Notes under the pieces: generated by a model
Told to the model about the DNA's origin: nothing
Databases searched by the model: none
The model's input: only the letters and a program-made list of their open reading frames with translations
In this document: in pieces, positions 1-45,915 of the stretch
Numbering within the stretch: position 1 is the stretch's first letter
Layout of the letters: the number at the start of each line of letters is the position of its first letter
From: a virus
Virus record (IMG/VR): IMGVR_UViG_3300025659_000002
Location: 64,001-128,000 of that record
DNA: 64,000 nt
Strand: one strand, 5' to 3'
Position numbers and translations under genes: made by a program

Positions 1-1052
1 AAGCAGCAGCGCTTCACTACAAACGAAACCCACATCATGCCCACAAACTTGGTTTGGTCTCTGAAAGAAAAAATAAATTAGAAGCAGTAACTGATTGGTA
101 TGCGACCTCAAAAGCTAACCAAGCTAATACAAAGGATTTTCCTAGTTTCGGCACCTGGGTGAGAACTCAAAGCCCAGCAGCTAGAAAGAACTTAATAGAT
201 TTAGGAATAAACACGGAGAAATTAGCAATGCAAGATAAAGTAACATTAATATTTAAGAAATATGCAGAAGTTCAGGATTTAAAAGCTAAAATCAGGAGCG
301 GAGTAACAAATATAAAAAATAATGAAGGAGTGGCAAAAGCTACCGCTACCGTAAAAGCTATAGATAAGAAAATTAATTGAAGTAAAGTAGATAACGTGGC
401 TACAGGGTTAGCCGTAGGAGCGAAAGGTTACCATCTTAAAACCGTACATTCACAGGTGAAGGCGGGTAAGGCCGCTCAAAAGGAAATGGCAAAACAACCA
501 TTTATGAAGGACGTTCCCGGGTATGTAAACTCTAAAATGGGAGACAGTGTAAGCGTTATTCACGATAAAGCCAGTTCTAAAAAATGAGTTAAGAAAAATG
601 TAGGTAGAGGACCAGGAGGTTTTATATCTCATCAAATGAATAAAATTATATTAAAGCAACCTAACGCGGCAGCTACTATGGGTAAACACGGCCCCGCAGT
701 TATAATTGGATCAAAAGGGTCTTCTCAAAAAATTATAGATCACGAACTAGGACATATCGCGGATTTTAAGAATAAGGGTCTTACTTCTCCAAAAAAATTA
801 GGAAAACATTCAAGAGGAAAAGCAACAGATGTTTTTCATAATCTTGTGGGCAAGCCTGAAAAAACAAATAGATTTAAAATGGAAATCGATGCTTGGGATA
901 ACGCTGGAGTACCTGCAGACGACGCTCTTAGAGTTAAGGCGTTAAAAACTTATAGGCAACAAGCAGTAGGGGGAACTAGATCTGGGATAGCTAATTTAGC
1001 TACAACTGCTTTTAAAGCGTTCACCACTGCAAAAAAGAATAAGATAATATAA
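1..1052 (+). CDS. Virion-associated protein with HELGH zinc-peptidase motif (5' end outside window)
   Basis: The reading frame is open from base 3, so the gene begins before the window. It crosses two in-frame TGA codons (378-380 and 585-587), read as Trp. The product is Lys-rich and carries H-E-L-G-H followed by I-A-D-F at bases 741-767, the HExxH zinc site of gluzincin/metzincin-type metallopeptidases; no third zinc ligand can be assigned with confidence. The stop TAA overlaps the next ATG by one base (TAATG), the coupling used throughout this operon. It lies beside a set of Lys-rich proteins with a common leader, so a virion-carried peptidase that acts on the cell wall or on injected proteins is plausible but inferred. 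The family is not recognised. Confidence 0.6.
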
Positions 1053-1786
1053 TGGATAAAGCACAGTATATATTTGAAAAATTAGGAAAAGACTCTTCAG
1101 CTACCAGAGATTTTTTCGCAGGAGTAGAGCCTACCGGACGTTGGACATTTGAAAGCGCTATTAATAATAAAGAAAATCATAAAAGGCATATGGGTACAGC
1201 GGTTGCAGGAGGTTTTATAGGGAGCTCTGTAATTACTCCAGCAGTGTTGTCTACTATGGTAAAAGGGCCAAGCGCCTCTAGACAGGCCGGACCCGGCATA
1301 AAGGCTAAAGCCCATGCAGTAGCTTCTGAAGCTTTTAAACCATATAAAGTATTAGGGCAGTCTCTTCATGCGCGTAGTAAAATTAATAAAGCATTAAAAA
1401 CTAAATCTAAAGTATCTAAAAAAGATTTTTCTGTTATTCTGGATACATTAAAAAACCTGTCTATAAAGGATTTAGAGAAAACAAAAGGTCCTTCAGAAAA
1501 AGGCAAGGTATTATGAAAAAATAAACGAGGGGATACTATAAAATCAAAAACTAACTTTAAGGATGTAATTAAGGAAACATTTACTAGCGCAAGAGCTAAT
1601 CCAAAGATACTGAAATCAGTAAGACACGGGTTAAACCGAGGTATAACTTTAATATCTTCTGGAATATTAGCGGCAGGAGCTATAGGAGGGGTAGCAGCAG
1701 GAGCTCAATATAATTCTGGATTAAGAGCGCGCAAGATGCTTGTTCCAGGGACTACAAAAAAATCTAAAATTTTGGAGACAAATTAA
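1052..1786 (+). CDS. Lys-rich putative internal virion protein with shared N-terminal leader
   Basis: 244 residues with one in-frame TGA (1514-1516). It starts with MDKAQYIFEKLGK, which closely matches the starts of the next three genes, while the rest of the protein is unrelated to them. Two small-residue hydrophobic stretches are visible: AVAGGFIGSSVITPAVL near residues 50-66 and LISSGILAAGAIGGVAAGA near 200-218. These may be membrane-inserting segments. The remainder is basic. Start and stop are coupled to both neighbours by TAATG overlaps. By analogy with T4 internal proteins, the leader may target the protein into the prohead before cleavage by the protease encoded at 9655-11376. The function of the mature protein is unknown. 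Confidence 0.6.
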
Positions 1787-2514
1787 TGAAAGATAAAGCA
1801 ACTTACATATTTGAAAAAATAGCTAAAACAGCGTTAGTAAGGGCCTTTAATCGTGGAACATTGTCGCTTAACAACGTAAAACGTATTTCACAGAGCTTAC
1901 AGTTGAAACCAAGAACTTTAAGAAAGGCTGGTCGAGGCAATGAGGCGCTCGTACAACTAAGAACCTCTCCGAAACATGGAGTAGAAGTGGCCAAAATTCA
2001 TGACACGACTAGTCCAATGTTTAGCCGTAAAGCCTTTAATACTAAAATACAAGTTTCAAAAAAACTGAATAAATCACCACATTTTGCTAAGTTTCACAGA
2101 GCCGATAAAAAAAAGAAAATAACATACCAACAATATAGTGTTCCGAGTGAAAAAACATTTGACGAGCACGTAAAACTTATAAGAAGTGCACGTAAAGATT
2201 CTAGAAAAATAATTGGTAAAACCGTGCAAGATCTTCACTCTTCAAATGTTGCTGGAAATAAAGTAATTGATTTTTTATCTCCAGATATAGCAAAAAACAG
2301 ATCCACTGAACTTGGCAAGATATTTAGTAAGGGAAGTAAAAAAAAGTATAGAGCTAGAAAGCATATGAAAACCTTATCAGGACAGGCTAAACATGATTTT
2401 TTTAATAGACCCTCTTCAGAAAAGTCTACATATGATAAATGAACAGTTCGCATGTCTAAGTACAAAAAAAATAAAATAACAGATAGTAACTTACTTAAAA
2501 AGGTATATGGATAA
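1786..2514 (+). CDS. Lys-rich leader-bearing protein with weak protein-kinase-like signature
   Basis: 242 residues with one TGA (2440-2442). The N-terminus MKDKATYIFEKIAK is the operon's shared leader. Residues 147-163 (VQDLHSSNVAGNKVIDF) resemble the catalytic and metal-binding loops of kinase-fold enzymes (D-x-H-x3-N followed by h-h-D-F). An upstream segment, ITYQQYSVPSEKTF, resembles a kinase hinge. A glycine-rich loop and catalytic Lys are not clearly recognisable, so this could be a degenerate kinase or chance similarity. The C-terminus is very basic. If it is a leader-targeted cargo protein, a kinase injected with the DNA is an attractive but unproven reading. It overlaps the upstream stop by one base and precedes the next start by 4 nt. 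Confidence 0.55.
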
Positions 2515-2518
2515 AAAT

Positions 2519-3127
2519 ATGAAAGATAAAGCAACAATAGTATTTGAAAAATTAGCGGGTAGATCCGTAGAAAGTTTAGGACTGATTCCTGAAGGTATGA
2601 CTGTTAAACAATGGAACGACGACTATAATGCTGGCTATGAAAAATACAAAAAAATTCATGGTAAAAAGCTACACGCATATGATAAGCAATATAGATCGAC
2701 CCATACATATCCTAAAGTTAGTAAGCAGCAGTTCAAAAAGAATAGGCGAAGAGCAGTATTAAACGCTGTTGGAGTGGTGGTGGCGGGGGCTCTTACAGGC
2801 GCAGCAATACTTCGTAAGTATGCAGGATCAAGAGGGTTAAAACGCCTTAATAGAGTATATAAGAGTGTTGACAATTCTCGTAGCTTAGCATTTAGACAAT
2901 CAGAAAAAAATTGAAGAAACTACGATAACCATACTACTAAGAATACTGAAAAAATTCTAAGACTTGGTAGAGTATGAGACCGTTCTGCTACAAAAACAAA
3001 CATACTTGATAAGAAGACAGAGCTTGCAGGAAATAAATTATATAGAAAAAAACAAGAAGGGAAACTTAGACATGTAAAAGGCATGATGAAAACTATTAAG
3101 AATGGTGATGAAGTGGGATTAGCCTAA
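2519..3127 (+). CDS. Lys-rich leader-bearing putative virion cargo protein
   Basis: 202 residues with two TGA codons (2912-2914 and within LGRVWDR). The leader MKDKATIVFEKLAG is nearly identical to its neighbours. The ATG at 2519 is preferred over the in-frame ATG at 2507 because it aligns the leader exactly with the other three genes. A hydrophobic small-residue stretch (VLNAVGVVVAGALTGAAIL, about residues 76-94) could cross a membrane and is flanked by Lys/Arg-rich regions. Under the standard code the gene would be cut at 2914; with TGA as Trp it runs to TAA, which overlaps the next ATG. No family is recognised. The role as internal head protein is inferred from the leader and composition. 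Confidence 0.6.
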
Positions 3128-3729
3128 TGGATAAAGCAACAATAGTATTTGAGAAACTAGCAATCTCTACAAGACATATAAACAAGGCTCTAACAAAGTC
3201 CAAATTACAAAATACTAAAAATTTGTGAAACGTACTTGATCCTAAAAGGCAGAAATACAGAAACCCAACACGACTAGAATTAAAGGCTGACTCTCTAATT
3301 CACAAAAATAATACTAATCTACGAAAAAGAAAAGCTGGAAGATTTGACCGAACACAAGATCTTGAACTTATGAATAGTATAAAAACTGCTGAAGGCCTAA
3401 CTAAATCTCAATTACAATTTTCAGGGGTAACTGCGGCTACTCAAAATAAAAGACTTCTTCCAGGAAATATAGCTACAAAGGCACAAAAGGCAGATATTAC
3501 CACTATTAAATTACAGAATAAGGCAGCAGTTAAAGCGTCACAACCTTTTTTACTTAAGAAAACAGCAAAGTTTATACCAAAAAATCTTAAGGCTTATAAA
3601 CTGAAGAATAGTATAAGTAAAGCTAAAATTTCAGATAAGAAAAATACTATACTCCTACAGAAAGAAAAAAATAGTGCAGCAGCAAATCGCATAGAGATGG
3701 CGAAGAATTGAGCTAAACGATACAAGTAG
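3127..3729 (+). CDS. Lys-rich leader-bearing putative virion cargo protein, last gene of unit
   Basis: 200 residues with TGA at the LWNV position (about residue 34) and near the C-terminus (3709-3711); stop TAG. It starts MDKATIVFEKLAI, the fourth consecutive copy of the leader. The rest is Lys/Ala/Asn-rich, predicted mostly helical and strongly basic, with no hydrophobic segment and no recognised domain. It may bind DNA in the capsid, but that is a guess from composition. It ends 7 nt before the -35 box of the promoter at 3737-3765, so it closes a transcription unit that begins upstream of the window. Confidence 0.6.
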
Positions 3730-4714: not shown

Positions 4715-5545
4715 ATGAAATACCCATTTATAAAATATGTAGAAACGCTAGTTATGCGTAAATTACCCCCAGAGGATGTAAAGGCGGGCTTAGATATCTA
4801 TAATCTTGAAATGCCTTTGTCAGATATCATGGTTATTAGAGAAGGACTAGAGAAGGCTTTTCCTGAATATTTTAAATCTCCTGAGATTGTGCCTCCTTCT
4901 GAAGTATTAGAACAAATAAACATAGAAACAATGTTTGCATATTTATATAAAGTATATACTCCTAAAAGCGTTAAGGGAGTTAAAGGTTCTTTTGAAGTAG
5001 TAAATGATATGCTTATGTATAGATTAATTACATCACTAGCGCTTGCGAAGATAACAGAAGAAGATATTGAGCTTATAGTTAATGGGAAATTTAATATCGA
5101 CTATGAGCATGAAGATATAGAATCTTTCTTACACTACTTCTTTGATGTACAAGGTTGAACAATTGCTGATAAAAAAGCATTAGTGCGAAAAACCAAAGAA
5201 CATTTTTTACAACACGCATATAGAACTGCTCTAGAACATGATAAAAATTACTTAATTTGAAAACTTGGAGCATCTCCTGATAAATCTTTTGACTCCATGT
5301 TAAAGGATATGATGAATGATGCGTATTATAATTTTACCGAGAGATCAACAATTGACCCAGAACTTGCACAAAAATGAGGAGCGTTAGCTGTTAAGCTGGC
5401 AGACAAATTAGAAAAATTAGATAAAGATAAAAAGAAAAAAGAAGACTTCTTTGCCGAAGTAACGTTTGAAGTAAAACAGCACAGAGCTGGACATGTAAAA
5501 GATTCTGACGAACCCAAACATATCCTGGATTTGATGAATGAGTAA
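4715..5545 (+). CDS. Packaging-operon protein, possible small terminase subunit
   Basis: 276 residues with three TGA codons (5156-5158 and two downstream). An N-terminal helical region (MKYPFIKYVETLVMRK onward) is followed by a long acidic/basic C-terminal helix rich in Lys and Glu (KLADKLEKLDKDKKKKEDF) that may form a coiled coil. It sits three genes upstream of TerL in the same operon, where many phages encode TerS, and its size and helical make-up would suit that role. No helix-turn-helix can be assigned by eye, so this is context only. Its end overlaps the next gene by 8 nt. Confidence 0.5.
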
Positions 5546-6329
5546 TCAATACATTAAAAAACAAGCAGGCATCTTAGATGTGCCACAAGATACTTTAGCT
5601 AGCGATATATGGACTACTGAGGGAAAACTATATCCCCACATTAGGGATCAAATTTTAAATAGGTTATATGCTTTTGTGCCTAAGAAAGTGGTACGAAGTG
5701 TGGTTATTTTAGGATCCATTACAGGATACAAATATACTGAAACGTCGGACATAGATATAAACGTTACGATTGAGCCTTATGGTGACTATTTTCATCAAGC
5801 TAAGAAAGAAGTTAATGGCTATCTTGCACAGGGTACCCGACATCCTGTAAATTATTTTGTTATGCCCCATACTTCAAAATTATCTAATTGAGAAAATTCT
5901 ACGTTTGGAGTATTTGATGTAATTTCAAATGTTTGAGCAAACAACCCACCCGCTAGAGCTACAGTTAGAGACCCGCATAAGCAATTTAATCAAGAATTTA
6001 TTATAGCAAAAATGGTTGCTGGACATTATAAAAGACTTGTTTTAGCTTTCCATAAAGACAAAAAAGATTTAGAGACTCTTATAGCATTACCAGATTCTTG
6101 ACATAAGTGATGGTGGATTAGAAATAAAAAAAAGGAAATAAATGAAGATAGACAAGATCTCATTAATTTTTCTCAAAATCTAGATAAATCTAGAAAATTA
6201 GAGTATTCTTTAGGGTGAGGAACCCCGAGGAATAATTATAGAAACGTAGTATATAAATTTATCGAACACGGACCTCATGGCGAGTTATTCGAAAAATTTA
6301 AAGAAATCAAGCTAAACAATGGCAAATAA
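5538..6329 (+). CDS. Nucleotidyltransferase-fold protein
   Basis: 263 residues with five TGA codons, one of the densest in the window. Residues 55-75 hold the polymerase-beta-type nucleotidyltransferase signature: hydrophobic strand V-V-I-L-G-S (Gly59, Ser60), then T-S-D-I-D-I with metal-binding Asp71 and Asp73. A third carboxylate may lie in the following strand. The C-terminal half contains Trp clusters, several created by TGA, and a basic stretch. Members transfer nucleotides to nucleic acids, proteins or small molecules; the substrate here is unknown. Position between the putative TerS and TerL suggests a role linked to packaging or to modifying the translation machinery, because it overlaps the bS21 gene. 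Confidence 0.65.
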
Positions 6330-6546
6330 GATACAGAAGAAAAGTGGACCTAAAGATTTTGGGTTAAAGGTATACGTACACAACCAAGATCAAAGAGGAA
6401 TTAGTGATGCACTAAGACGCTTAAGAAGCAGATTAGATACAGAAAATATCATGGAAGAAGTGAGATGAAGACAGCATTATGTTAAGCCTAGCCAAAGAAC
6501 CAAACATAAAAAGAAAAAATCTAATCCAAGATGTCTCAAAAGATAG
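6319..6546 (+). CDS. rpsU: Phage-encoded ribosomal protein bS21 homologue
   Basis: 75 residues with one TGA (Trp50). The order of motifs follows bS21: V-Y-V-H-N strand, then I-S-D-A-L-R-R-L-R-S-R (the ALRR helix), I-M-E-E-V-R-W-R-Q-H-Y-V-K-P-S (matching the R-R-R-E-F-Y-E-K-P segment), and a Lys/Arg-rich tail. Host bS21 sits on the 30S platform near the anti-Shine-Dalgarno sequence and affects initiation. Phage copies are known from large metagenomic phages and are thought to favour phage mRNAs. It overlaps both neighbours. Because its own frame contains TGA, the full protein can only be made when UGA is decoded as Trp. Confidence 0.82.
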
Positions 6547-8069
6547 CAATATCACGTAGCGAATTTGCAGAATCATTTTTCTGGCTAAATGGCGCCCCCT
6601 TCTCTTTAGATGATTACCCCCATATGCGACGTGTGTGGGATACTTCGCCTAAAAAGAAAGTTATGCAATTTAGCAGACAGACGGCTAAATCCACTACAAT
6701 GGCGGGAATGGTAACAGCTAATTCTGGTATGATTCCTTTCTTTAAAACTTTATACGTAGCTCCTACGATTACTCAAGCTAAGATATTCAGTCATGATAGG
6801 GTGAAACCTTTTTTAGAAGGTAGCCCTTTTATGAAAGATCACTATATGAATACTTCTCTAGTAGATAATGTTCACCATAAAGAATTAGCTAATGGATCTT
6901 TAATGCATATAAGATATGCGCTGCTTTCTGCTGATAAATTACGTGGATTTTCTGCGGATATGAATATTTTCGATGAGTGTCAGGACATGCTTAGTGAAAT
7001 TATTCCTGTGGTACAGGAAACTATGACACACTCTGATTATAAATGGATAGTATATTCTGGTACCCCAAAACGTTCTAGAGGAACTTTAGCTGATTTATGG
7101 CATAAATCTACTATGTGCGAATATATAGTTAAGTGCCAAAGTTGTAATCATTGAAATATTTTAGATGAAGAAAACATTGGGGATTTCGGAGTTATATGTA
7201 AGAAGTGTGGTAGACCTTTAGATATTAGTGTAGGAGGAGAATGAGTTTCTACATATTCTTTAAAAAATCCTACAGCTATGGAAGGGTATAGAGTTTGCGC
7301 TTTACACTTTGCAAAAGCACCCTGGGTTAATTGGCAGGAAGATATATTAGATAAACAAAGGCATTGGTCTAAAGCTTTTTTTCACAATGAAGTATTAGCG
7401 TTAGAATATGATGCTGGAGTATCACCTGTTACAGAATTTGAAATAGATAGAGCCAGTACCGGCCCGTTAATGGAAGAGGATCCTAACGAGGAACAGCGTA
7501 ATTATCCTAGTGTATTAGCTATCGATTATGGCCCAGTTAATTCAGAAAAATCTTATACCGTAGCAGTAGTAATGCAACTTCGCTCTAATAAATTACGAGT
7601 AGTTTATGCTAAAAAGTTTATTGGAAAAGAAGCCGATTATAGTTTTATCGTTCCAGAAATTCCTAAAATAATGGCTAAGTGAAATTGCGTTAGTGTAGCT
7701 TCAGATTATGGAATGGGCGAAGCGCCAAATTCAGAACTCAGAGCTAGAATAGGTTATGAAAAAGTAGTAGCATTTCAACATTCCGGTACCCAGAAAAATA
7801 AAATTCAATGGAATGACAAGATGCCCGCCTACACTTTAAATAGAACTAAAGTAATGACTGAATTCTTTGAAAACATTAAAAATTTACGAATAGAATTTCC
7901 ACATACAGTATCAATGGATTCTTTTAAAGAAGACATTATGAATATACAAATTGACTATGACGAAGAGCGAGGATTTATGAAATATATTAATATAGGTCCA
8001 GATGATTTTGCCCATGCTTGTATTTTTGGAACTATAGCTTGCGAACTAATGTTTGGGGCAGTAAAATAA
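6531..8069 (+). CDS. terL: Terminase large subunit
   Basis: 512 residues with three TGA codons (7152-7154, about 7242, and 7680-7682). The ATPase domain has a terminase-type Walker A, R-Q-T-A-K-S at residues 49-54, with Ala instead of the usual Gly. Walker B is N-I-F-D148-E149. A zinc-ribbon-like insert C-Q-S-C ... C-K-K-C follows. The RNase H-like nuclease domain shows A-I-D332-Y-G, S-D392-Y-G and D491-D492-F-A-H-A. It would cut and pump genomic DNA into the prohead through the portal. The start is ATG 6531, within the end of the bS21 gene. The spacer after its TAA is A-rich and leads into promoter P2. Confidence 0.92.
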
Positions 8070-8121: not shown

Positions 8122-9084
8122 ATGTTCACAGCATCCGACTTAGAAATTTTCGGTAAGTCTATTTCCGAAAAGTATATCAAAAACTCTATCCCTCTTACAG
8201 AAGGTTTAGCTAAAACAGCTGAAGCCCAGGGATTTACTACATACCAAATTGACCGAGTTGCAGAATTTGCTAATACGGCCACGTATCTTAACATGATGAA
8301 AACAGCTTCGGATAAATATATACGTTTTGAAGTTGCGGATTCAAAGGAAGCTAAAAAGAATATGAAATCTATCAAAGTAGCTGTGGATTTAAGCGATTAT
8401 GACGATGAGCCTTCTATTTTTTCTATGCAAAAAGTAGCAAGCGCTGAGAAACGTGAGGCAACGGAATCAGAATTACGGAAAATGGCCCAACGTCATTTAG
8501 GTAGTATACAAAGAGAAAGTAATATAATTGCAGAGCATGTAACGAGTTGGGATACTACATATGGACAGTTAAAGTCTCTAATAAAACAAGCAGTATTAGG
8601 CGGATGCTCTTATGGAAACGTTTCTGAAATTATAAAAGTCGCTGCACCACAAACCCATGAACATTTTATTTCCTCAATAAGAGAGGAACTACAACCAAAT
8701 ATGCCTTTTGTTAAATTAGATACAGAAGGTGACAATTCCTTAACCCCTAACCCTAACTCAGATATTTATAAAATCGCTGAAAGATTGGAAACATATACTG
8801 ATGAAATCTGCCAAGCAGATAAAAATTTAGAACAGGAAACAGAGGATTATACTAAATTTACTAAAGAAGCCTCTCTTCCTAATATTAGTGGACTATTACA
8901 AGAAAAATCAGCGGCCTTAAAAGTAATTAAAGGTATTGGAAAAACAATTATAAATCATCCCAAAACTACTGCAGCATTAGCTGTGGGGGCAATGGTACAT
9001 AAGTCTGGCAAAAATAAAGGTAAGTTTGAACAAGGTTTGATATTACAAAAGAAATTAGTTCAGCATAAAATGGGGAGAAGATAA
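8122..9084 (+). CDS. Capsid-operon structural protein of unknown role
   Basis: 320 residues with no TGA. It is the first gene after promoter P2 and is probably leaderless. The protein is mostly helical, with a C-terminal Ala/Gly/Lys segment (TTAALAVGAMVH near residue 286). It contains several K-T-A or K-V-A sites (EGLAKTAEAQ, MQKVASAE) like those at the N-termini of other virion proteins here, which may be prohead-protease sites. Location between TerL and the prohead protease is where a portal or portal-associated protein is usual, but it is shorter than most portals and lacks a recognisable portal pattern. It overlaps the next gene by one base. Confidence 0.5.
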   Translation: MFTASDLEIFGKSISEKYIKNSIPLTEGLAKTAEAQGFTTYQIDRVAEFANTATYLNMMKTASDKYIRFEVADSKEAKKNMKSIKVAVDLSDYDDEPSIFSMQKVASAEKREATESELRKMAQRHLGSIQRESNIIAEHVTSWDTTYGQLKSLIKQAVLGGCSYGNVSEIIKVAAPQTHEHFISSIREELQPNMPFVKLDTEGDNSLTPNPNSDIYKIAERLETYTDEICQADKNLEQETEDYTKFTKEASLPNISGLLQEKSAALKVIKGIGKTIINHPKTTAALAVGAMVHKSGKNKGKFEQGLILQKKLVQHKMGRR

Positions 9085-9654: not shown

Positions 9655-11376
9655 ATGATAGAAAAACGCGCAGAATACTTTTACGGAGACAATAACTCTG
9701 AGGTGTTTACCCTTATCGGTAAGGGAACCATGGAGAAAACTGCGTCGTATTCAGAAGAGTTAGTAGATTATATTAATTCTTTAAAAAAGCGTGTTGACAA
9801 AGTATATGCTTTAGTAAATGCTTTATCTGCTGGAGAATTTTATAGCTCTAATAGAAATGGTGATCATTTTCCAGAAAAGGCCTTAAAACAATATCATAAA
9901 ACATTTGAAGCTTTAGGTCATGTGTACAGACACCATGTAAATAAGGATCCAAGAAAATCGTTAGGTAAGGTTTTATTTTCACATTATAATCCTACAATGC
10001 ATCGAGTAGAATTAATATTAGAATTAGATTCTAAAAAAGGTGCAGACGTTATTACAAAAATGCAAAAAGGAGAATTACCATTTTGTTCTATGGGAACTAA
10101 AGTTCCTTTTGACATATGCTCCATTTGCGGAAACAAAGCTCAAACGAGAGCTCAATATTGTGACCACTTAAAGTATCGTATGAATAATATTTTATCCGAC
10201 GGTAGAAAAGTTTACGCAATAAATACAATGCCGAAATTTTTTGATATCAGTGTTGTAACTATCCCTGCCGACAGGACTGCTAGTTTTATTAGGCTTCTTG
10301 AAGCAAAATCATCTAGTAGACCTCGTGTTATAAAAATTGCAGAGGAATTACCAAAAGAAACAAAACAGCTTTTTAAAGCTGCCGGGTTTGAACCAAGAGC
10401 AGAAATTAGAAAAAAAGTAGACGTTAAAATAGAGATTGCGGACCAAGATCCAAAAAATATCCTATTACATACTCAGAAAAGACTTTCAGATGAAACAATC
10501 GAAAAGCTTTCTAAGTATAATATCGACGAGATACTTTCTACAATGATGGCTTTACGAATTGCACCAGTTAGAGAAGATTTTCAAAAATTGGCTGCGTACG
10601 TTTTTGGACAAAAAGAAGCGGCAGATAAATGGGCTGAAAATGGAGTTTGTTTTATTGTAGATAAGGACACAGTCCCTACAGAATTACCCAATGTAACTTT
10701 TGATAATTTTAATAGCAAGATCGCAGGGGTGCTTTTGAAGTCAGTCCCAGATATGTCTCTTACTAAACAATGAGTATTAGCAAGAGGAATACATAAAGTA
10801 GGATATGAGTCTCAAGCAACAACCTATCCAAGTAATGTTTCTAGAGAACGTAGCGGAATAAAACGTTTCTTATTTACGCAGAAAGAGGAACCACCTGTTT
10901 CAGCACATAGAAATCCAGTAGTTCCATTAGGACTTCTAGGAAGCTTATATTACGGGTATGCGAAGGTATTTAATAATCCATCGATTAATAAATTTAGATC
11001 GTTTGTAGTTAAATATCCTTGGTTACTTCCAGTATTAGTGGGAGCGGGAACGGCCGGTTCTTTAGCCAGCCAAAGTGTAGCATTTAATAAAGAAGCCTCT
11101 TTAGGAGCTGTGGACAAATTCCTAATGTCTTCTTTAATAACAGTACCAACCGCCTACTATTACGCAGGTAAACAGGAGAATAAAGCTAGAAAAGGTGTAC
11201 CTTTAAAACCAACAGAGAACTTTGCCAGAAAACATCCATTACTCGCAGGACTAGTGGGGGCCACTGTAGCAACAGCTATTAAGAGACCTAAGTTTTTTAA
11301 AACAGCAGAGTTATTATCAGAAATAAGTCCGGAAGATTTGGATTTATTGTATAAAGATATCATAGGAGGGCAATAA
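9655..11376 (+). CDS. Prohead (head-maturation) protease with zinc site and membrane-like C-terminal extension
   Basis: 573 residues with one TGA (10771-10773). The N-terminal 250 residues match the herpes-type prohead serine protease fold: His93/His94 in Y-R-H-H-V-N-K-D-P, then repeated strands, then the nucleophile Ser145 in F-C-S-M-G-T-K-V. A zinc knuckle follows (Cys155, Cys158, Cys169, His171), then F-F-D-I-S-V-V and P-A-D-R-T-A. It would cleave scaffold and N-terminal leaders during capsid maturation. The protein is unusually long. After the TGA its C-terminal third carries Gly/Ala hydrophobic stretches (LLPVLVGAGTAGSLA and HPLLAGLVGATVATAI), which may be a separately released virion protein. 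MEKTA at residues 26-30 may be a self-cleavage site. Confidence 0.85.
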
Positions 11377-11377: not shown

Positions 11378-11965
11378 ATGTCACTTAATATAGACAATAT
11401 TTTAGCAAAACTAAAAGCTGAACACGAAAAAACAGCTGAAGAATCTTTTAATGACGCAATGCTTGAAGGTTCTACGGAAGTTAAAGAAGAAGTTAAAGAA
11501 GCAGAAAAGACTGAAGAAGTAGCTGAAGAAGTGAAAGAAGAAGTTAAAGAAGCTGAAAAGACTGAAGAAGTAGCTGAAGTAGTTAAAGAAGAAGTTAAAG
11601 AAGCAGAAAAGACTGAAGAAGTAGCTGAAGAAGTGAAAGAAGAAGTTAAAGAAGCTGAAAAGACTGAAGAAGTAGCTGAAGAAGTAGCTGAAGAAGACTT
11701 ACAGAAAGAAGCTGAAAAATATGAAGATGCGGGTAGAATTATGGCTCAAGGTTTCTGGAAGGAATTGCAGAAACAGGCGTCTGAAGAAGTAGCTGAAGAA
11801 ATAGCTGAAGTAGTTAAAGAAGAAGTGAAAGAAGAAGTTAAAGAAGCTGAAAAGACTGAAGAAGTAGCTGAAGAAATGAAAGAAGAAGTTAAAGAAGCTG
11901 AAAAAACAACTGCTGCGGATAGAATTATCGGAGCATTAACCTCACAGTATTTAGGAGATAACTAA
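11378..11965 (+). CDS. Acidic repeat protein, probable scaffold/core protein
   Basis: 195 residues with no TGA. AGGAGGG lies 8 nt before the ATG. After MSLNIDNILAKLKAEHEKTA the protein consists largely of a 17-residue unit, K-E-E-V-K-E-A-E-K-T-E-E-V-A-E-E-V, repeated with small changes four times in residues 35-107 and again at 145-180. It is highly acidic and fits long alpha-helices or coiled coils. Size, charge and position directly after the protease and before decoration and major capsid genes fit an internal scaffold. The recurrent K-T or K-V-A steps could be protease sites. The repeat DNA is nearly identical between units, so unit number may vary. Confidence 0.6.
   Translation: MSLNIDNILAKLKAEHEKTAEESFNDAMLEGSTEVKEEVKEAEKTEEVAEEVKEEVKEAEKTEEVAEVVKEEVKEAEKTEEVAEEVKEEVKEAEKTEEVAEEVAEEDLQKEAEKYEDAGRIMAQGFWKELQKQASEEVAEEIAEVVKEEVKEEVKEAEKTEEVAEEMKEEVKEAEKTTAADRIIGALTSQYLGDN
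11479..11910 (+). repeat. 51-bp in-frame direct repeats in acidic scaffold-like gene
   Basis: Units of about 51 bp coding for a 17-residue acidic motif recur from 11479 to about 11700, are interrupted by a unique stretch (about 11700-11800), and resume to about 11910. Differences between units are mostly single synonymous or conservative changes. Confidence 0.8.
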
Positions 11966-11967: not shown

Positions 11968-12273
11968 ATGGGAACACTATTAGACACATATAAAGCTATT
12001 CAGGAAACTGAAGCTGAAAAAGTGGCCGAAGAAGTTACTGAAGAAGTAGTTGACGAGGGTCAAGAAACTTTACGTAAGTACGCTGAGGGCGCTGAAGGCT
12101 TATTAGCTGCAGAATATGGTGAAGATTACGACGAAAATGACGTAATAAAATTAGCTGGAATGATGATTGATTACGATGTGGAACAAGAAACAATGCTTGA
12201 AAAAGTAGCTGAATTGGAAGACATGGGTACAATTATAGGACAAGCTATTAAAGCTGAGTTAGCTAAAGACTAA
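11968..12273 (+). CDS. Small acidic protein related to the scaffold-like protein
   Basis: 101 residues with no TGA. The N-terminus (QETEAEKVAEEVTEEVVDEG) repeats the E-K-V-A-E-E theme of the preceding gene, so the two probably share an origin or a protease site. The rest is helical and acidic (AAEYGEDYDENDVIKLAGMMIDYD). It begins 2 nt after the upstream stop, so the two are co-translated. It may be a second core or scaffold component; no family is recognised. Confidence 0.55.
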   Translation: MGTLLDTYKAIQETEAEKVAEEVTEEVVDEGQETLRKYAEGAEGLLAAEYGEDYDENDVIKLAGMMIDYDVEQETMLEKVAELEDMGTIIGQAIKAELAKD

Positions 12274-12281: not shown

Positions 12282-12602
12282 ATGGATCCCAAGTTAATTA
12301 GCGAAACTATGGCTCTTGTTGAATCTCTTAGAGATGATAATGAGAAATTAGCATCTGATCTGGCGCATGTGCAAAACGCGTATGCAATAGTATTTCAGAT
12401 GTTTAAAGCCGGACATGTAGCTGCAGAAAATTTGGAGTCCACAATCAAGAAATTCGTCCAAAAGGACGACTCGGAACTTGAAGTTATTGAAAAAGCTGCT
12501 AGCTTCGGAGGCGCTGTCGCGTCTCTAGGGGAAGTTAGTGACCGACTTCAGGATGACGGGACCATGGATCCTTTGACAAGAATGCTTGTCGAAGATCTTT
12601 AA
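12282..12602 (+). CDS. Small coiled-coil capsid-operon protein
   Basis: 106 residues with no TGA. Residues 1-60 show a clear heptad pattern of Leu/Ile/Val with charged residues (ISETMALVESLRDDNEKLA), consistent with a coiled coil. E-K-L-A and E-K-A-A steps recur here as well. The C-terminus (MDPLTRMLVEDL) is acidic. Placement between scaffold-like genes and the decoration gene suggests an assembly factor. No homologue is recognised. Confidence 0.5.
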   Translation: MDPKLISETMALVESLRDDNEKLASDLAHVQNAYAIVFQMFKAGHVAAENLESTIKKFVQKDDSELEVIEKAASFGGAVASLGEVSDRLQDDGTMDPLTRMLVEDL

Positions 12603-13093: not shown

Positions 13094-14017
13094 ATGGAAT
13101 ATTCAGCTAGTACGCTAAATGAGTTATTTGTAGAAAAGCTTAATTCCCCTGCGGGACTTGAGAAAGTCGCTATGGAAGGATCAGCTTTCGTTAGACAAAA
13201 ACTACGTGAAGTTTCTTTTGCAAGAAAAATAATAAATCCACAATATGTAACTAAAGCTGACTTGACAAGATCTGTCAATCACGACGGCCTAGTTAAAATC
13301 GTGGACATCGAGCCTGACTCAGAAGCCATGGCACTGAACATGCGCGGACAGCCAAACCTTAGATACGTAATGGGCGATCGATTCGAGATACCCCTGTATC
13401 AGGTTAGTTCTGAAGACTTTCAGAAGACTGAAGAAGAGCTGTTGGCCTATGAAATGCCACTGACTGACATAATTGAGAAGAACTCAGTACTCGATTTACA
13501 ACGCATTGAAGATGAAAAATTCTTAGAAGGTGTAGACGCGCTAATGCCCGTTGCAAACGCTAAGACCGGTTCTTATAGAGCATCCGGCAGTGAAACAGGT
13601 GTGATTGAAAAATCAAGCCTAAAAGAACTGTTTGACGTTTTAGACGGAGCGGAATTACGTTGCGATACCCTATTAATGGATTCTACAATGTATAACAGAT
13701 TATTCTTGTATGATGCATCAACTATTGGTGACTCAGCAGGAAGCGAAATCTACATTAATGGTTTCACTTACAATACGCTCTTCGGACGTAAAGTAGTTGT
13801 TTCCAATAAAGTGTTCAAACAGGACGGGTCAACTGCACTGTTACAGAACAAGATCTACGCTTTTGCACCACAAGAATTCTTAGGACAATTCTTAGTATTA
13901 AACGATACTAAATTCTGGATCGAAAAGAAAAAGAATATTATCACATGGGCCGTGTACGAACACATTGGCATCGGATTTGGTAACTCCAAAGCGCTTGCTA
14001 AACTTACACTGTCGTAG
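13094..14017 (+). CDS. Major capsid protein (HK97 fold)
   Basis: 307 residues with no TGA; both of the last Trp residues use TGG. The strongest ribosome site in the window, AAAGGAGG, lies about 10 nt before the ATG. The order decoration protein then capsid protein, the length, and the alternation of an N-terminal helical arm, E-loop-like region and a C-terminal beta-rich end (NKIYAFAPQEFLGQF, then FWIEKKKNIITWAVYEHIGIG) fit HK97-type capsid proteins. The N-terminus contains G-L-E-K-V-A-M-E-G, a likely prohead-protease site. A terminator follows 22 nt after the stop, so it ends its transcription unit. Confidence 0.8.
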   Translation: MEYSASTLNELFVEKLNSPAGLEKVAMEGSAFVRQKLREVSFARKIINPQYVTKADLTRSVNHDGLVKIVDIEPDSEAMALNMRGQPNLRYVMGDRFEIPLYQVSSEDFQKTEEELLAYEMPLTDIIEKNSVLDLQRIEDEKFLEGVDALMPVANAKTGSYRASGSETGVIEKSSLKELFDVLDGAELRCDTLLMDSTMYNRLFLYDASTIGDSAGSEIYINGFTYNTLFGRKVVVSNKVFKQDGSTALLQNKIYAFAPQEFLGQFLVLNDTKFWIEKKKNIITWAVYEHIGIGFGNSKALAKLTLS

Positions 14018-25700: not shown

Positions 25701-28459
25701 CAGGTTCAAGTGGATCTGCAGGATCAAGTGGTTCTTCCGGAACTTCAGGATCAAGCGGTACAAGCGGTACTAGTGGTACTTCGGGGTCAAGCGGTACAAG
25801 TGGTACGAGTGGTACTTCAGGTTCAAGCGGAACTAGTGGTACTTCTGGGTCAAGCGGTTCAGCAGGTTCAAGCGGTTCAAGCGGAACCTCTGGTTCAAGT
25901 GGTACTTCAGGCTCAAGTGGAACTTCAGGTACAAGCGGAACTTCAGGTTCAAGCGGAACTTCAGGTACAAGCGGAACTTCTGGGTCAAGCGGTTCAGCAG
26001 GTTCAAGCGGTTCTTCCGGAACCTCAGGTTCAAGCGGTACGAGTGGTACTTCAGGATCAAGCGGTACAAGTGGAACTTCAGGATCAAGCGGAACTTCAGG
26101 ATCAAGCGGAACTTCAGGAACTTCAGGATCAAGCGGAACTTCAGGAACTTCAGGTTCTAGCGGAACCTCCGGGTCAAGTGGAACTTCAGGAACTTCAGGT
26201 TCAAGTGGATCGGCAGGTTCAAGCGGTTCAAGCGGAACTTCGGGATCAAGCGGAACTTCAGGAACTTCAGGTTCAAGCGGTTCAAGCGGATCATCAGGAT
26301 CAAGCGGAACTTCCGGGTCAAGCGGAACTTCAGGAACTTCAGGTTCAAGCGGATCAGCAGGATCAAGTGGCTCTTCCGGAACCTCCGGGTCAAGCGGTAC
26401 GAGTGGAACTTCCGGGTCAAGCGGTACGAGCGGAACCTCCGGATCAAGTGGTTCAAGCGGTTCAAGCGGTTCAAGCGGTTCAAGCGGTTCAAGCGGAACG
26501 TCTGGATCATCTGGTAACACCGGAAATGCAGCCGGACATGTCCAGTACAACTTTGACAGCTCAACAACTGTAGCAGATCCGGGATCTGGAGACTTACGAT
26601 TAAACAATGGGACTCAAAACGCGGCTACCGTTATAATCTGTTCCGATGAGGACATTTTAGCGGTAGATGTACAGGGGTTACTGGCAACCTTCGACGACTC
26701 TACTAGCGCGGTTAAAGGTCACATCGTGCTCAGCGAGACTTATGTACCTGAAAACTGATTAATATTCCAAGTGAATTCTATAACCGAGGGACCAGGATAC
26801 TGGCAGATCGGAGTAACTAACGTAGATTCTTCCGCAGCATCACCTTTCTCAAATCTAGATCGTCTAGTTTTAAATTATTTCCGTACAGGAGATGCAGGGA
26901 CTAGTGGTTCAAGCGGTACGAGTGGTTCAAGCGGTTCAGCAGGTTCAAGCGGATCTTCAGGGACTTCCGGATCAAGCGGTACGAGTGGTACTTCAGGATC
27001 AAGCGGTACGAGTGGTACTTCAGGTTCAAGCGGTTCGGCAGGTTCAAGCGGTTCTTCAGGAACTTCAGGTTCAAGCGGAACTTCAGGTTCAAGCGGTACA
27101 AGCGGAACTTCTGGGTCAAGCGGTTCAGCAGGATCAAGTGGCTCTTCCGGAACCTCCGGGTCAAGCGGTACGAGTGGAACTTCCGGGTCAAGCGGTACAA
27201 GCGGAACCTCCGGATCAAGTGGTTCAAGCGGGTCAAGCGGTTCAAGTGGAACTTCAGGATCAAGCGGTTCAAGCGGTTCAAGCGGTTCAAGCGGAACGTC
27301 TGGATCATCTGGTAACACCGGAAATGCAGCCGGACATGTCCAGTACAACTTTGACAGCTCAACAACTGTAGCAGATCCGGGATCTGGAGACTTACGATTA
27401 AACAATGGGACTCAAAACGCGGCTACCGTTATAATCTGTTCCGATGAGGACATTTTAGCGGTAGATGTACAGGGGTTACTGGCAACCTTCGACGACTCTA
27501 CTAGCGCGGTTAAAGGTCACATCGTGCTCAGCGAGACTTATGTACCTGAAAACTGATTAATATTCCAAGTGAATTCTATAACCGAGGGACCAGGATACTG
27601 GCAGATCGGAGTAACTAACGTAGATTCTTCCGCAGCATCACCTTTCTCAAATCTAGATCGTCTAGTTTTAAATTATTTCCGTACAGGAGATGCAGGGACT
27701 AGTGGTTCAAGCGGTACGAGTGGTTCAAGCGGTTCAGCAGGTTCAAGCGGATCTTCAGGGACTTCCGGATCAAGCGGTACGAGTGGTACTTCAGGATCAA
27801 GCGGTACGAGTGGTACTTCAGGTTCAAGCGGTTCGGCAGGTTCAAGCGGTTCTTCAGGAACTTCAGGTTCAAGCGGAACTTCAGGTTCAAGCGGATCATC
27901 AGGATCAAGTGGGTCCTCTGGGACTTCCGGTTCAAGCGGGTCAAGCGGCTCCTCAGGTTCAAGCGGAACTAGCGGCTCTTCAGGAAGCTCCTTCACCTAT
28001 TCCCCTTCTAACGATAATAGAGTATTAAGAAGTGATACCGTAGGATCGGACGGAGTGCAGGAAACAGGTATAACCGTCGATGATTCTGACAACATGAGCG
28101 GAATAGCAGAACTATCAGCTACTGTAAAAAAATTCGTAATAATACATCCTACTAAAAAAGATTATAAATTACAGCACAGTGCTCTTGAAGGGCCTGAGCA
28201 TGGAGTCTATATTAGAGGTAAACTCAATATTGAGGATTCAATAATTCTACCTAATTATTGGGAACAATTGGTGGATACATCAACTATTTCAGTACACTTA
28301 ACTCCTATAAGATACTATCAAAAACTTTACGTGGATACTATTCAGGACAAAATAATTCTAATTAAAGAAGCAGACTCTAAACCTATATACTGTTTCTATG
28401 AGGTTAGAGCCGAACGTAAAGACGTTGATAAACTAGAGGTCGAGGTACCATGTCAGTAG
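22775..28459 (+). CDS. Giant collagen-like Gly-X-Ser repeat tail fibre
   Basis: 1,894 residues with five TGA codons; stop TAG. The N-terminal 65 residues include G-Q-T-W-W-D-S-S-N-E-V-L-K-T-W-T-G-S-T-W, with three of the Trp from TGA. From about residue 65 to 1245 the protein is almost only Gly-X-Y triplets (GSS, GTS, GSA, GAS) with no Pro beyond one GVP-like site. A 129-residue globular domain occurs twice (about 1247-1375 and 1513-1641), each followed by more triplets. The C-terminal domain (1738-1894) has E-G-P-E-H-G-V-Y-I-R-G-K-L and Y-Y-Q-K-L-Y-V, typical of phage adhesin ends. A trimeric collagen-like fibre is expected. Its Ser/Thr content and location make it the prime candidate glycosylation substrate. 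Confidence 0.85.
22966..26512 (+). repeat. Low-complexity 9-bp based repeats encoding Gly-Ser/Thr-Ser triplets
   Basis: The DNA is built from 9-bp codon blocks such as GGT-TCA-AGC and GGA-ACT-TCA with shuffled Gly and Thr codons. Ser-Ser pairs are nearly always TCA-AGC or TCT-TCT/TCT-TCC. The block order is irregular, so no simple long unit dominates before 26490. The region stays open in other frames and on the reverse strand as a by-product of the repeat. Confidence 0.9.
26497..27893 (+). repeat. Tandem duplication of fibre domain, 798-bp offset
   Basis: The block starting near 26497 recurs 798 bp downstream with essentially no base changes across the globular domain (26512-26898 and 27310-27696) and into the following triplets (to about 27095 and 27893). 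A smaller 771-bp offset upstream shows a 27-bp insertion in the second copy. Confidence 0.88.
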
Positions 28460-29127
28460 GTTACGGAACATCATTAGTTAACGACAGCTTAGTTTTTTGT
28501 CTAGATGCTGCAAACCCCAAGAGCTATATCGGTGATGGGGATTGGTATGATTTAATCAAGGACAACAATGGAACTAACTATGGACCAACTTATAGTTCAG
28601 ACTATGGTGGGATTTTCTTATTTGATAGAGCTTCTTCTCATTATTTTTATATAGGAAATCCAGCAGAGCTCTCTTTAGGTTCTAATTTTACAGTAGAAGC
28701 CTGAGTACGAGCTGACGCAGATGCTTGGATGTATTTTCTATACAACGGCTATAATCAAAATAACAGCTTCTGAATGGGAACACACCCCACCGCCAATGCT
28801 TGGTGACACGGTACTTATTATAACACTTCTTATAATTATTTGAGTAATGGTACTGACTCTGTAGAAATAGGAGTATGAACTCGCTGTGCTCTAACTTTTG
28901 ATGGTGCCAAATTTAATTGTTATATTAACAAAGAACACACAGTTACTGACGATCTATGATCTAATGATGCTTTTTCAAACCCAAGTACTGGAATTCAAAT
29001 AGGCAGTTCTTCGGGAAGTCGCGCTTGAGAAGGAGCTATAGCTGTTATTAAAGTATATAATACTGTTCTATCTGAAATTGAATTAGATAGAAACTATGAC
29101 GCTTTAAAAGGCAGGTTCGGCTTATAA
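28450..29127 (+). CDS. LamG-like (concanavalin-fold) lectin 1 of 5
   Basis: 225 residues with several TGA codons (VEAWVRAD, FWMG, VWTR, LWSN, AWEG). The LamGL pattern is clear: L-V-F-C-L-D-A-A-N-P-K-S-Y, a W-Y-D-L strand, N-F-T-V-E-A-W-V, C-A-L-T-F-D-G and I-A-V-I-K-V-Y-N-T-V-L-S, ending R-N-Y-D-A-L-K-G-R-F-G-L. It overlaps the fibre gene by 10 nt. It is probably a receptor-binding or fibre-tip protein recognising surface glycans (family knowledge plus context). Confidence 0.75.
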
Positions 29128-29834
29128 TGGCACTTCAACACTCACCAAGAATAGTTACTGATGGGCTCATCTTCATGATAGATGCTGCCAATCCTAAGTG
29201 TATGCAAGCAGGCGATACCACTTGTACAGATTTAATAGGAGCTAAAACTTGTACAGGCGCTAGCGGTACTCCTGCGGCAGGGGCGCACACTCCGAACCCA
29301 GCTTACTTTCCAGAGTACAATGATCTCTATGGTGGGGGTGTGTTTGATTGTGCTGGTGGAAGAGGGATGAACGTAGAAGAAAGTTTAGGCTCTCATACAG
29401 AAGTGAGTGTTTGTACGTGACTTTATAAAAATTCCTCAAGCGCACAATACATAACTGACGGAAGAAATAACGGCGGCACTTGGTATATATTTAACTATAC
29501 CTCACCACAAACTAACTTGTCTTGGGCAAACCAACTTACACATACTTTCAGTGATCCTAAAGAAGCTGACGATGAAGCTTTTATGAATAAATGAATTTAC
29601 TTGGTTATCGCAGCAGATGCCTCTGCTGGTACTTTCTTTGTTAACGATGAATCAGTTGCTACCGGTGGCCCTATAACTGATAGTTTGGGAGTAAATTTTA
29701 GAATAGGTACTAGGTATACTACATCGGCCCCTTGAACAGGTTATATGGGTCCTATACAAATCTATGATAGAAAAATAACACTTGCAGAAGTGCAACAAAA
29801 CTTTAACGCACATAGATCGAGGTTCGGGGTATAA
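29127..29834 (+). CDS. LamG-like lectin 2 of 5
   Basis: 235 residues with TGA at TWLYK, KWIYL and PWTGY. It starts MALQHSPRIVTDGLIFMIDAA, very close to the fourth paralogue (MAFYHSPRIVTDGL), and ends N-F-N-A-H-R-S-R-F-G-V, the family's common tail. Extra Cys residues near the N-terminus (K-C-M, T-T-C-T-D, T-C-T-G, D-C-A-G) set it apart from the others and might form disulphides or metal sites. A one-base overlap with each neighbour keeps the five genes co-translated. Confidence 0.75.
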
Positions 29835-30538
29835 TGGGTTGTCATGAGGGGCCGCGATGAGAAACCGATGGTTTAAAATGATGCGTAGATCCCGCTAGTT
29901 CTAAAAGCTATAGCGGGTCAGGCTCGGATGTTTATGATTTAAGTTCTGGTAACTATAGTAGTACTATAACGTCCGCGACTCACAACGGCACTGGTCCAAA
30001 ATCTTTTGTGTTTGCCGCTAACCCGGATAGAATAGAAACGTCTTCCTCAACTTGATGAACTACTCCTACAAGTATGAGCGTATCTACATGATTTAAAATG
30101 ACAGGCGGGGGCGGTACCTATAGAACTGTTATTCACAAAAGTAATACAGGTGCAACCTCTGTAGGCTCGAGTCAATTCTGAACAGGTATAACTGCAGCGG
30201 GTACTTTGTGTGCTACTATTGGAGCAGCTACTGGTGGAATAGGTTGGGCTGCAGGGAATACTACCACCACAGGTACTTTAGATATTTGATGGAATTTAGC
30301 CGCAGTTTGGAATGGTGCCAATGTGCGAGTCTTTATAAATGGAGTCTATAACAAGCAATATGATTTAGGAGAATACCCTGTTGGCGATTACGCAGTACGA
30401 GTAGGGGCTTCTGGTGATGCTGGTACCTACCAAGTTATAGGTAAAATTCCCATGGTTACAGCAAATCACAATGTCGCACTAAGTGACGAACAAGTTGCAC
30501 AAAACTTTGATACACACAAATCGAGGTTCGGACTCTAA
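29834..30538 (+). CDS. LamG-like lectin 3 of 5
   Basis: 234 residues with at least eight TGA codons (PRWET, LKWCV, STWWT, STWFK, QFWTG, IWWN), the highest density among the five. It is hidden under the standard code. The fold markers are W-C-V-D-P-A-S-S-K-S-Y, M-S-V-S-T-W-F-K and A-A-V-W-N-G-A-N-V-R-V-F-I-N-G, ending N-F-D-T-H-K-S-R-F-G-L. As in the other copies, many TGAs sit on Trp positions expected in this fold, for example the strand before the second sheet. A role in host recognition is inferred. Confidence 0.72.
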
Positions 30539-31227
30539 TGGCTTTTTATCACTCACCACGAATAGTTACTGACGGATTGATAGCATATTTTGATGCGCTT
30601 AACCCAAAATCCTATCCCGGAAGTGGAACATTATTATATGATTTGACTGATCTCACTAATATTGCCGATGTAAAAAATTCCCCAACATATAATGCTGATG
30701 GAAGTTTTAGTATGAATGGCACTGATCAATATATTAATATGGGCACCTGCGAACAGTATTATCCAGCTACAGGAAGCTTAAGTTTGTGTGCAAGTATATG
30801 AGTAAAAGATACTGCAAGTGAAAATAGTGTTGTACTTGGGCAGCAAAACGTAGCCAACGAAAGACTATATATTGGTAGATACTCAGGTAATTGAAACATG
30901 GCTTGAGGAGAACAACATTGGGGCGATTCATATACTGGAGATTTAGTAGCAACTAGTGCTGGATTTGATAATGTGGTATTAAACGTGATAAAAGGAGTAC
31001 CAACTTTATATGTTAATGCTGTAGAAACTATCAGTAGAACGGGGGACACTAATGTATCCTTAACTGGCCCATTTCCGCTTGGTGCGTATTTTGGAGCACC
31101 TGGTGTGTATATTGACGCTTCCTCAGGTCCAAACGATAGTGCTATATGTCAATTATATAGTAGAAATCTATCAGTAGCAGAACTTACTCAAAACTTTAAT
31201 GCACTAAAAGGAAGGTTCGGAATATAA
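30538..31227 (+). CDS. LamG-like lectin 4 of 5
   Basis: 229 residues with TGA at SIWVKD, NWNMAW and following positions. The start MAFYHSPRIVTDGLIAYFDALNPKS nearly matches paralogue 2, pointing to a duplication inside the array. The core strands include Q-Y-I-N-M-G-T, S-L-C-A-S-I-W-V-K and A-I-C-Q-L-Y-S-R-N-L-S, and the end is N-F-N-A-L-K-G-R-F-G-I. It is coupled to both neighbours by TAATG overlaps. The ligand cannot be predicted from sequence. Confidence 0.75.
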
Positions 31228-31931
31228 TGACTGTAGTAGGCGGGCCAAATATAATAAGGGATAACTTATCGTTTTATGTAGATGCAGCTAATATAGACTC
31301 ATATCCAGGTAGCGGGTCTACTTGAACGGATTTAAGTGGCAATGGTTTTGGAAATGCATTATTCGGAGCTACAACATATTCAACGAGCCCAGATAAGTTT
31401 GATACCAATGCGACTGATCATTTAACAGCTGACCATTTATCATTAAATGCAACTATTACATACGCTGACGCTTCTGCGTATACCTTTGAATTTGTAGTCA
31501 AGTTAAGAGCGTCCGCTACAGCGACTTATCAAGGATTAGTTGGATATGGGTCTACAAATCCTTGACTAACGTTATATGCAAATAACACTTCTGGAAGTTC
31601 GTGAGATTTGCGGTTTAGAGATAATGCCGCAGCTTATAATACTTTTTCTGATATTACTGATTATAATATACAAAATAATTGGGCTCATATAGCTATCGTA
31701 GTAGGGACAGATAGGAATATGTTATTTTATTTAAACGGAGCATGAAAACAAACTAAAGCTCTAACTACTTCTCTTTGTAGAGTACAAAGAATATGTGGGG
31801 GATATTCTTCTGGAGGAAATTATTACTCTTTACAAGGGTCAATGGCGTTATCTAGAGGATATACTTCAGATTTAAGCGCTACCGAAATATTACAAAACTT
31901 TAATGCTACTAAGGATAGGTTTAGTATTTAA
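31227..31931 (+). CDS. LamG-like lectin 5 of 5
   Basis: 234 residues with four TGA codons (STWTDL, NPWLTL, SSWDLR, GAWKQT). The segment S-F-Y-V-D-A-A-N-I-D-S-Y-P-G-S-G-S-T-W-T-D-L-S-G-N is a textbook start for phage LamGL proteins, in which S-T-W-x-D-L-S-G-N is conserved, and here its Trp is TGA. The end N-F-N-A-T-K-D-R-F-S-I closes the array. It is the last gene of the P3 operon, 8 nt before the -35 box of promoter P4. Confidence 0.75.
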
Positions 31932-37767: not shown

Positions 37768-37786
37768 TTAAATGGAGGATATCTAA

Positions 37787-40136: not shown

Positions 40137-40484
40137 CTATTTAGCCCACTTTCCTTTATTTACAATCCTAGAAATTATACTATAAACTCCTAAATCTAAA
40201 AAAGCATCTTCTACAGATTCGTTTTGTGGAGACCTTCCGGTCTTTACCACAAGATTCAATAATCGTTGCATTTTATCATTCATACGAATAATTATTCCAG
40301 TAGTAGACAACCTTTTATCTTCGTCTGTTTTTAAGTTGGTTCCCATACTGATATTGTTTGGACCATAATCCATTTGTTTCCTACAAAAGATAGCAAAATC
40401 TTCAGCCTGTATAGCTTCAAATTCTTTCATCATTTCTGGATATTCTTTTTTACAGAACTCAATTGGATTTATAATGTCTGTCAT
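40137..40484 (-). CDS. Nmad1-like (DUF1599) nucleotide-modification-associated protein
   Basis: 115 residues with no TGA; stop TAG. The start at 40484 (MTDIINP) avoids the 20-nt overlap with the polymerase that an upstream ATG would require. The pattern Q-M-D-Y-G-P-N-N-I, G-I-I-I-R-M-N-D-K-M-Q-R-L-L-N-L-V, E-S-V-E-D-A-F-L-D-L-G-V-Y-S-I-I is that of DUF1599/Nmad1 proteins. They occur in phages near nucleotide metabolism genes and may act on modified nucleotides, with the reaction unknown. It is the last gene before the shared terminator. Confidence 0.7.
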   Translation of the reverse strand: MTDIINPIEFCKKEYPEMMKEFEAIQAEDFAIFCRKQMDYGPNNISMGTNLKTDEDKRLSTTGIIIRMNDKMQRLLNLVVKTGRSPQNESVEDAFLDLGVYSIISRIVNKGKWAK

Positions 40485-40497
40485 TTTTATATATTGA

Positions 40498-45899: not shown

Positions 45900-45915
45900 T
45901 TGTCTTATTCCTAAG

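Follow-up and report, generated by a model that had tools for sequence, protein, structure and literature searches.

A K-x-A-ended leader on unrelated phage proteins encoded next to a head module, a probable capsid-targeting sequence

In phage T4, unrelated proteins (IPI-III and Alt) carry a short N-terminal capsid-targeting peptide that is cut by the prohead protease, gp21, itself encoded in the head module; for IPIII, the first 10 residues suffice for targeting (PMC9026906). In phiKZ and SPN3US, many head and ejected proteins are trimmed, and the cleavage motif (S/A-x-E in phiKZ) is repeated inside propeptides, several of which exceed 100 residues, with Glu before the cut (PMC9026906, PMC10052503, PMC7411985); the motif of SPN3US is A-x-E (PMC7411985). 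In P1, the 30 N-terminal residues of DarB are enough to direct a reporter to the capsid (PMC9024508), and all prohead proteases studied remove an N-terminal propeptide from the major capsid protein, or MCP (PMC7411985). Here we describe a comparable arrangement in a stretch of 64,000 nucleotides (‘the window’), positions 64,001 to 128,000 of the IMG/VR virus record IMGVR_UViG_3300025659_000002 (163,945 bases, G000 below), where four consecutive proteins begin with the same leader of about 12 residues. Coordinates are those of the window unless marked ‘record’.

We consider it likely that this leader is a portable capsid-targeting sequence of the T4 type, cut at its end by the phage's own prohead protease, with release of the cargo behind it. 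As in T4, a short N-terminal peptide is common to otherwise unrelated proteins, whose downstream domains differ, and the same genome encodes a prohead protease, in the head module, that would cut the peptide likewise. Unlike in T4, the motif is K-x-A rather than (I/L)-x-E, the cargo is larger and more varied, and copies of the leader also lie inside proteins. The trimming of many proteins at a motif repeated inside them is the likeness to phiKZ and SPN3US, although the propeptides there are long and have Glu before the cut, whereas the leader here is short and has Lys-x-Ala. P1 DarB also has an N-terminal capsid signal, but it is one protein, and the excerpt of PMC9024508 reports no cargo-set motif. 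Judged by its sequence, the leader would work like the T4 targeting sequences.

Judging from homologues that use the standard code, which have Trp at 60 of at least 96 TGA columns, the record decodes TGA as tryptophan (code 4). The four reported open reading frames (ORFs) are broken when translated with table 11, while under table 4 they are intact and abut one another. With TGA read as Trp, therefore, the four leader proteins have 244, 242, 206 and 200 residues and tile end to end:

1 to 1052, plus strand: 3' part of an ORF (code 4) with DUF5662, a leader and an HExxH motif, starting before the window at record 63838
228 to 266, plus strand: internal leader copy MQDKVTLIFKKYA in the record 63838 ORF
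1052 to 1786, plus strand: cargo protein of 244 residues (code 4), leader MDKAQYIFEKLGK at 1052-1087, ending K-L-G
1786 to 2514, plus strand: cargo protein of 242 residues, leader MKDKATYIFEKIAK at 1786-1824
2507 to 3127, plus strand: cargo protein of 206 residues, leader MKDKATIVFEKLA at 2519-2557
3127 to 3729, plus strand: cargo protein of 200 residues, leader MDKATIVFEKLAI at 3127-3162

The sequence-only reading had reported four tandem proteins with a common leader at 1052-3170. The leaders at 1052, 1786, 2519 (MKDKATIVFEKLAG) and 3127 are all exactly as it wrote them; for the third, an in-frame ATG upstream at 2507 adds MDKN. The start of the span stands as well, but its end cuts the fourth protein, which runs to 3729. 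That the proteins share little else is borne out, apart from the 1786 protein being 34% identical to another protein of G000, at record 61195. The 1052 protein has Gly/Ala-rich hydrophobic stretches and, over its whole length, no K-x-A where 3.6 would be expected. The proposal of a kinase-like member found no support: at E 0.01 the 1786 protein has no match in Pfam or PHROG, and its best kinase chain among solved structures has E=0.56. In the ORF from record 63838, DUF5662 (E=3.1e-13, above the cut-off) lies upstream of the internal leader, and an HELGH motif, seen by eye, lies downstream of it.

The set of leader proteins is larger than had been noted. Eleven ORFs, each on the plus strand, make up a cassette (record 58027-67729) shortly before the head module, and the four form its downstream end; the cassette adjoins the terminase, protease and MCP genes and takes up some 10 kb ahead of the terminase. 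The leader stands at the start of eight ORFs (record 58027, 61195, 61919, 63312, 65052, 65786, 66507/66519 and 67127), and three longer ones hold it internally (record 58380, 60653 and 63838; the copies in the 58380 ORF score 16.2, 17.7 and 13.2). The consensus, of 12 residues, is M-[D/N]-K-A-x-x-[V/I]-F-E-K-[L/I/Y]-A. Scores are from a matrix built from 31 typed windows (seeds), among them the four tandem leaders. These four score 31-35 and no shuffled gene (five shuffles per gene, six records) exceeds 14.2, so the leader is not a chance pattern. In the shuffle scan, as in the gene ranking and the count of MCP sites below, G001 was translated with table 11, which shortens its protease and some of its ORFs.

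A search of the rest of the genome and of relatives, which the sequence-only reading had proposed, finds 12 copies scoring above 16 in G000 (record 58030-67130, all on the plus strand), plus a weaker internal copy (13.2), and leaders in 13 other virus records. The 14 records together hold 52 copies, of which 41 are near an ORF start, 10 internal and 1 late; 31 are the matrix seeds. K-x-A ends 44 of the 52 and K-x-[A/G/S] ends 49, and the proteins behind the leader mostly differ between records. When a DNA pattern for MDKAxxxFEK was run against 2.9 million virus contigs, 95 stretches were returned; many of the 80 loci read (L013-L092) belong to one unrelated family starting MDKAQGLFEKG, and several are large contigs with whole leader sets. 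Five of these large leader-bearing contigs, G001-G005, each encode a protease related to that of the window (51-56% identity); G005 is not counted, its protease match being the same as that of G004 (51%). A looser pattern matched 6 of 26 further MCP-bearing records, with 13 matches in all, where the reversed control gave 1. A stricter pattern gave 26 stretches in cellular genomes; 25 are above the matrix threshold, all within longer ORFs, at position 60 or later, and none at a start. The leader proposed for the gene at 36991 (VLTKEAQEQIIKEAFYSELEKLG) was not borne out, with a best matrix score of -7.2 and -10.3 for the ELEKLG window; that ORF has two x-K-E-A motifs near its start.

The idea that the leader could arise from a recently duplicated or recombined mobile 5' end, kept by descent rather than function, is very improbable: near-identical leaders in four neighbours and the presence of tandem paralogues would suit it, but the four differ at synonymous sites and have no common upstream DNA in the 20 bases read. 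In the 14 records, the proteins that bear the motif are mostly unrelated, yet it retains its position-specific residues; selection on protein rather than DNA is already indicated.

The cutting site is approached through the head module, which follows the cassette:

6531 to 8069, plus strand: large terminase (phrog_675 E=2.2e-69; GpA_ATPase 8.8e-14)
8122 to 9084, plus strand: head-module protein H0 (8 hydrophobic-x-K-x-A sites, 0.84 expected)
9655 to 11376, plus strand: prohead protease of 573 residues (phrog_18299 E=6.7e-11; Peptidase_S78 E=0.008, below cut-off)
11378 to 11965, plus strand: H3, acidic and repeat-rich, scaffold candidate by position and composition
11968 to 12273, plus strand: H4, small head-module protein with K-x-A sites
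12282 to 12602, plus strand: H5, small head-module protein with K-x-A sites
13094 to 14017, plus strand: MCP (phrog_2522 E=2.7e-9)

K-x-A is the likely motif of this phage's prohead protease, as far as motif counts can tell. It is the strongest gapped pair in the G000 head proteins (40 vs 16.5-16.7 expected), and [FILMVY]-x-K-x-A occurs 23 times there against 5.1 expected (46 vs 42.6 in the 97 other proteins), while the T4 motif, [IL].E, is not enriched (23 vs 23.7). The pair ranks first in the head modules of G001 (z 8.0, its protease being excluded from this test), G002 (4.9) and G003 (4.6), and second in that of G004 (3.8). It is also the top pair in Salmonella phage Arash (44 vs 19.2) and Vibrio phage D181 (49 vs 22.1), both distant, with terminases only 26-28% identical to the window's; SPO1, a control, has no excess (4 vs 7.2). 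The T4 prohead protease motif is (L/I)-x-E, and the pair test agrees, placing that motif first among nine T4 head and internal proteins (49 vs 25.7) and K-x-A at rank 185. When genes are ranked by motif excess, H0 heads the list in all of G000-G004, and the protease has conserved K-x-A sites around and after its own domain. Some large proteins outside the head module also have an excess of hydrophobic-x-K-x-A (record 36319-38493, 10 vs 1.5; G011 71354-72433, 7 vs 0.84; G002 40295-41371, 9 vs 1.05), and these two kinds of protein are likely further head substrates.

In the MCP, the motif stands where a propeptide would end. The G000 protein has a single hydrophobic-x-K-x-A site, LEKVA at residues 22-26 (nucleotides 13157-13171); those of G000-G004 have one each, with the Ala at residue 25-27. 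K24 and A26 are invariant in an alignment of seven MCPs with identities down to 34%. In the isolated phages Arash and D181, the corresponding L-x-K-E-A is near residue 30. K-x-A falls within residues 15-35 in 74 of 74 MCP loci (51 distinct N-termini), which were taken from 80 returned by leaving out same-contig or near-identical repeats, and a hydrophobic residue precedes the Lys by two in 57 of the 74.

A substrate cut only at its leader might be expected to lack the motif elsewhere. For cargo bodies (cargo proteins with the leaders cut out, expectations from shuffles), the 11 of G000 contain 9 K-x-A against 39.7 expected, and none of 1000 shuffles is as low. Controls are near expectation: A-x-K (35 vs 40.0), K-x-x-A (34 vs 39.6), R-x-A (13 vs 13.9) and also A-x-x-K; K-x-G is low too (19 vs 32.0). 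When all 37 cargo proteins are taken together, no class is lower than Lys to Ala at a distance of 2 (50 vs 92.0), followed by adjacent Ala-Lys (72 vs 92.1). The 679-residue ORF at record 58380-60416 has only 4 K-x-A (13.5 expected), all inside internal leader copies.

The end of the leader also persists where the rest does not. In helicase homologues from four other records the start is different, but hydrophobic-x-K-x-A is retained, either at the domain or a little ahead of it (FFKIA, LIKFA, LIKIA, LTKRA); since K-x-A is kept under other starts, the cutting motif seems to be the more conserved half of the leader and the helix the more changeable half. The Arash helicase, 33% identical to the cargo helicase, has no tag at its start. 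Two genes close to each other in G018 (L313), at 89465 and 90674, begin MSKFFKEA and MSKFFKIA, a shortened leader that likewise ends in K-x-A.

The foremost alternative, which we regard as unlikely, is that the leader only docks cargo to a scaffold, portal, terminase or other partner and stays uncut, with the K-x-A enrichment of head proteins reflecting, for example, a preference of helix surfaces. The leader helix is indeed strongly amphipathic (moment 0.495 vs 0.294 +/- 0.02 when shuffled), and a few leaders keep it without the final Ala, namely K-x-K in nucleotidyltransferase cargo and K-Y-F at record 63315. Docking alone, however, would leave aside that the same blind pair test recovers the known T4 motif, that K-x-A is at the MCP propeptide position in every locus, that the G000 avoidance is specific to K-x-A against mirror controls and that the helicase homologues lose the helix and keep K-x-A. 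Leaders lacking the final Ala also count against a leader that is cut, as do several other results. Avoidance is weaker in G001 cargo (13 vs 21.0) and absent from the pooled cargo of G002, G003, G004, G017 and G023 (28 vs 30.9), which suits docking; R-x-A is in excess in that pool (29 vs 15.0). MCP bodies hold few K-x-A (22 vs 73.7) and likewise few of the control A-x-x-K (26 vs 74.1), so this depletion is not specific and is not relied on. In the G000 ranking by motif excess, third place goes to an unrelated gene on the minus strand (record 109123). The N-termini of head proteins are unlike the leader, only the scaffold candidate of G003/G004 reaching the 96th percentile, and 20 of the 26 sampled MCP-bearing records, many of them fragments, have no match to the leader pattern.

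On balance, the core of the sequence-only reading, a T4-like capsid-targeting tag removed by a prohead protease, is supported, because the motif is common to head proteins and MCP, K-x-A is avoided in G000 cargo and the leader occurs as a unit with different domains across relatives; the 36991 leader and the kinase of that reading are not. For a leader that is cut, an amphipathic helix of about 12 residues would dock each cargo protein in the prohead core, and the protease would cut at hydrophobic-x-K-x-A, most likely just behind the Ala/Gly, so that the cargo is released within the head. Where a leader stands between domains, fused cargo would be split apart by the protease. Once trimmed, the proteins would exit together with the DNA and have an early role in the host cell. 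We infer the cutting site, packaging and cleavage from motifs and gene arrangement, and the injection of freed proteins only by analogy with T4 and giant phages.

The cargo is varied. Families above cut-off are an SNF2 helicase, a single mitochondrial-carrier repeat, DUF5662, a DnaJ domain and two further carrier repeats; HExxH motifs, a nucleotidyltransferase GS..D-x-D and an ADP-ribosyltransferase-like start (G001 cargo) are labels by eye only. For the last of these, the best match in a PDB sequence search has E=0.4, and a structure prediction was of no use (mean predicted local distance difference test, pLDDT, 37.4). The carrier cargo at record 58027-58368 (114 residues) matches PF00153 with 54.3 bits (cut-off 22.3). 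The mitochondrial carrier family is defined by three tandem repeats, and this protein has one. PF00153 also occurs in G001, G018, G024 and G028, that is, in 5 of 36 records searched and none of 14 control genomes; carrier-domain proteins have the leader in G000, G001 and G028, and a variant start in G018, with LIKFA before the domain. Searches with tblastn gave no match for the carrier cargo in 50,697 phage records, nor for the record 61195 cargo in the phage collection.

Several cargo proteins have hydrophobic or carrier-like domains, which favours reading the leader as an export, membrane-insertion or organelle-import signal, or as a host degradation tag. Such a role is improbable: the 11-residue core has a mean net charge of only +0.5, usually opening with Asp and having Glu ahead of the second Lys, internal copies are ill-suited to an N-terminal export signal and the tie to the motif of the head module would be left unexplained.

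The same domain can be found with the leader in different places. DUF5662 has it N-terminally in G002 and after the domain in G000 and G001. A C-terminal leader on the G001 protein, read with table 11, was ruled out; the copy is internal because G001 too reads TGA as Trp. A 97-residue G002 protein begins with the leader, and the G000 ORF at record 60653, 56% identical there, has it internally. In G004 the nucleotidyltransferase carries a leader of its own, and in G003 it stands behind a weak internal copy in a 664-residue ORF. A related gene lies in the window:

5538 to 6329, plus strand: nucleotidyltransferase-like protein, start MSNQYIKKQA followed by G (Polbeta E=0.0056, below cut-off)

Here a short K-x-A start replaces the full leader, which relatives have (L133:7039-7995, minus strand; L212:1771-2721).

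Tentatively, and with somewhat less than even confidence, we suggest a plug-in delivery system in a widespread, mostly uncultured lineage: proteins of any kind would be loaded and trimmed if they follow a K-x-A-ended leader, effectors fused with leaders between them would be packaged as a polyprotein and cut in the capsid, and the cargo delivered at infection would include single-repeat carrier-like membrane proteins, a DnaJ-domain protein and an SNF2 helicase. If the leader is a capsid-targeting sequence as proposed, the packaged and probably injected proteins of this lineage could be listed from sequence alone, polyprotein cargo may be processed in the capsid, the protease would have a specificity unlike the Glu-ended ones of the papers cited above and a short tag would be at hand for loading chosen proteins into phage heads. 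Neither a K-x-A prohead protease motif nor this leader was found in searches of the open-licence literature.

G000 and G001 are both recoded, with TGA as Trp; for G002-G004 the standard code was applied. Of the ORFs on the minus strand at 40137-58661, many contain no TGA. G011 (L144-L147) and G001 (L122-L123) have large tRNA sets with tmRNA, each with a CUA-anticodon tRNA, and a tRNA-like gene with a UCA anticodon lies at L144:12150-12246. At 28450-31931, after an ORF of 1,894 residues, five tandem ORFs of about 230 residues with similar starts (DGL.F..DAANPKSY-like) are apparently paralogues.

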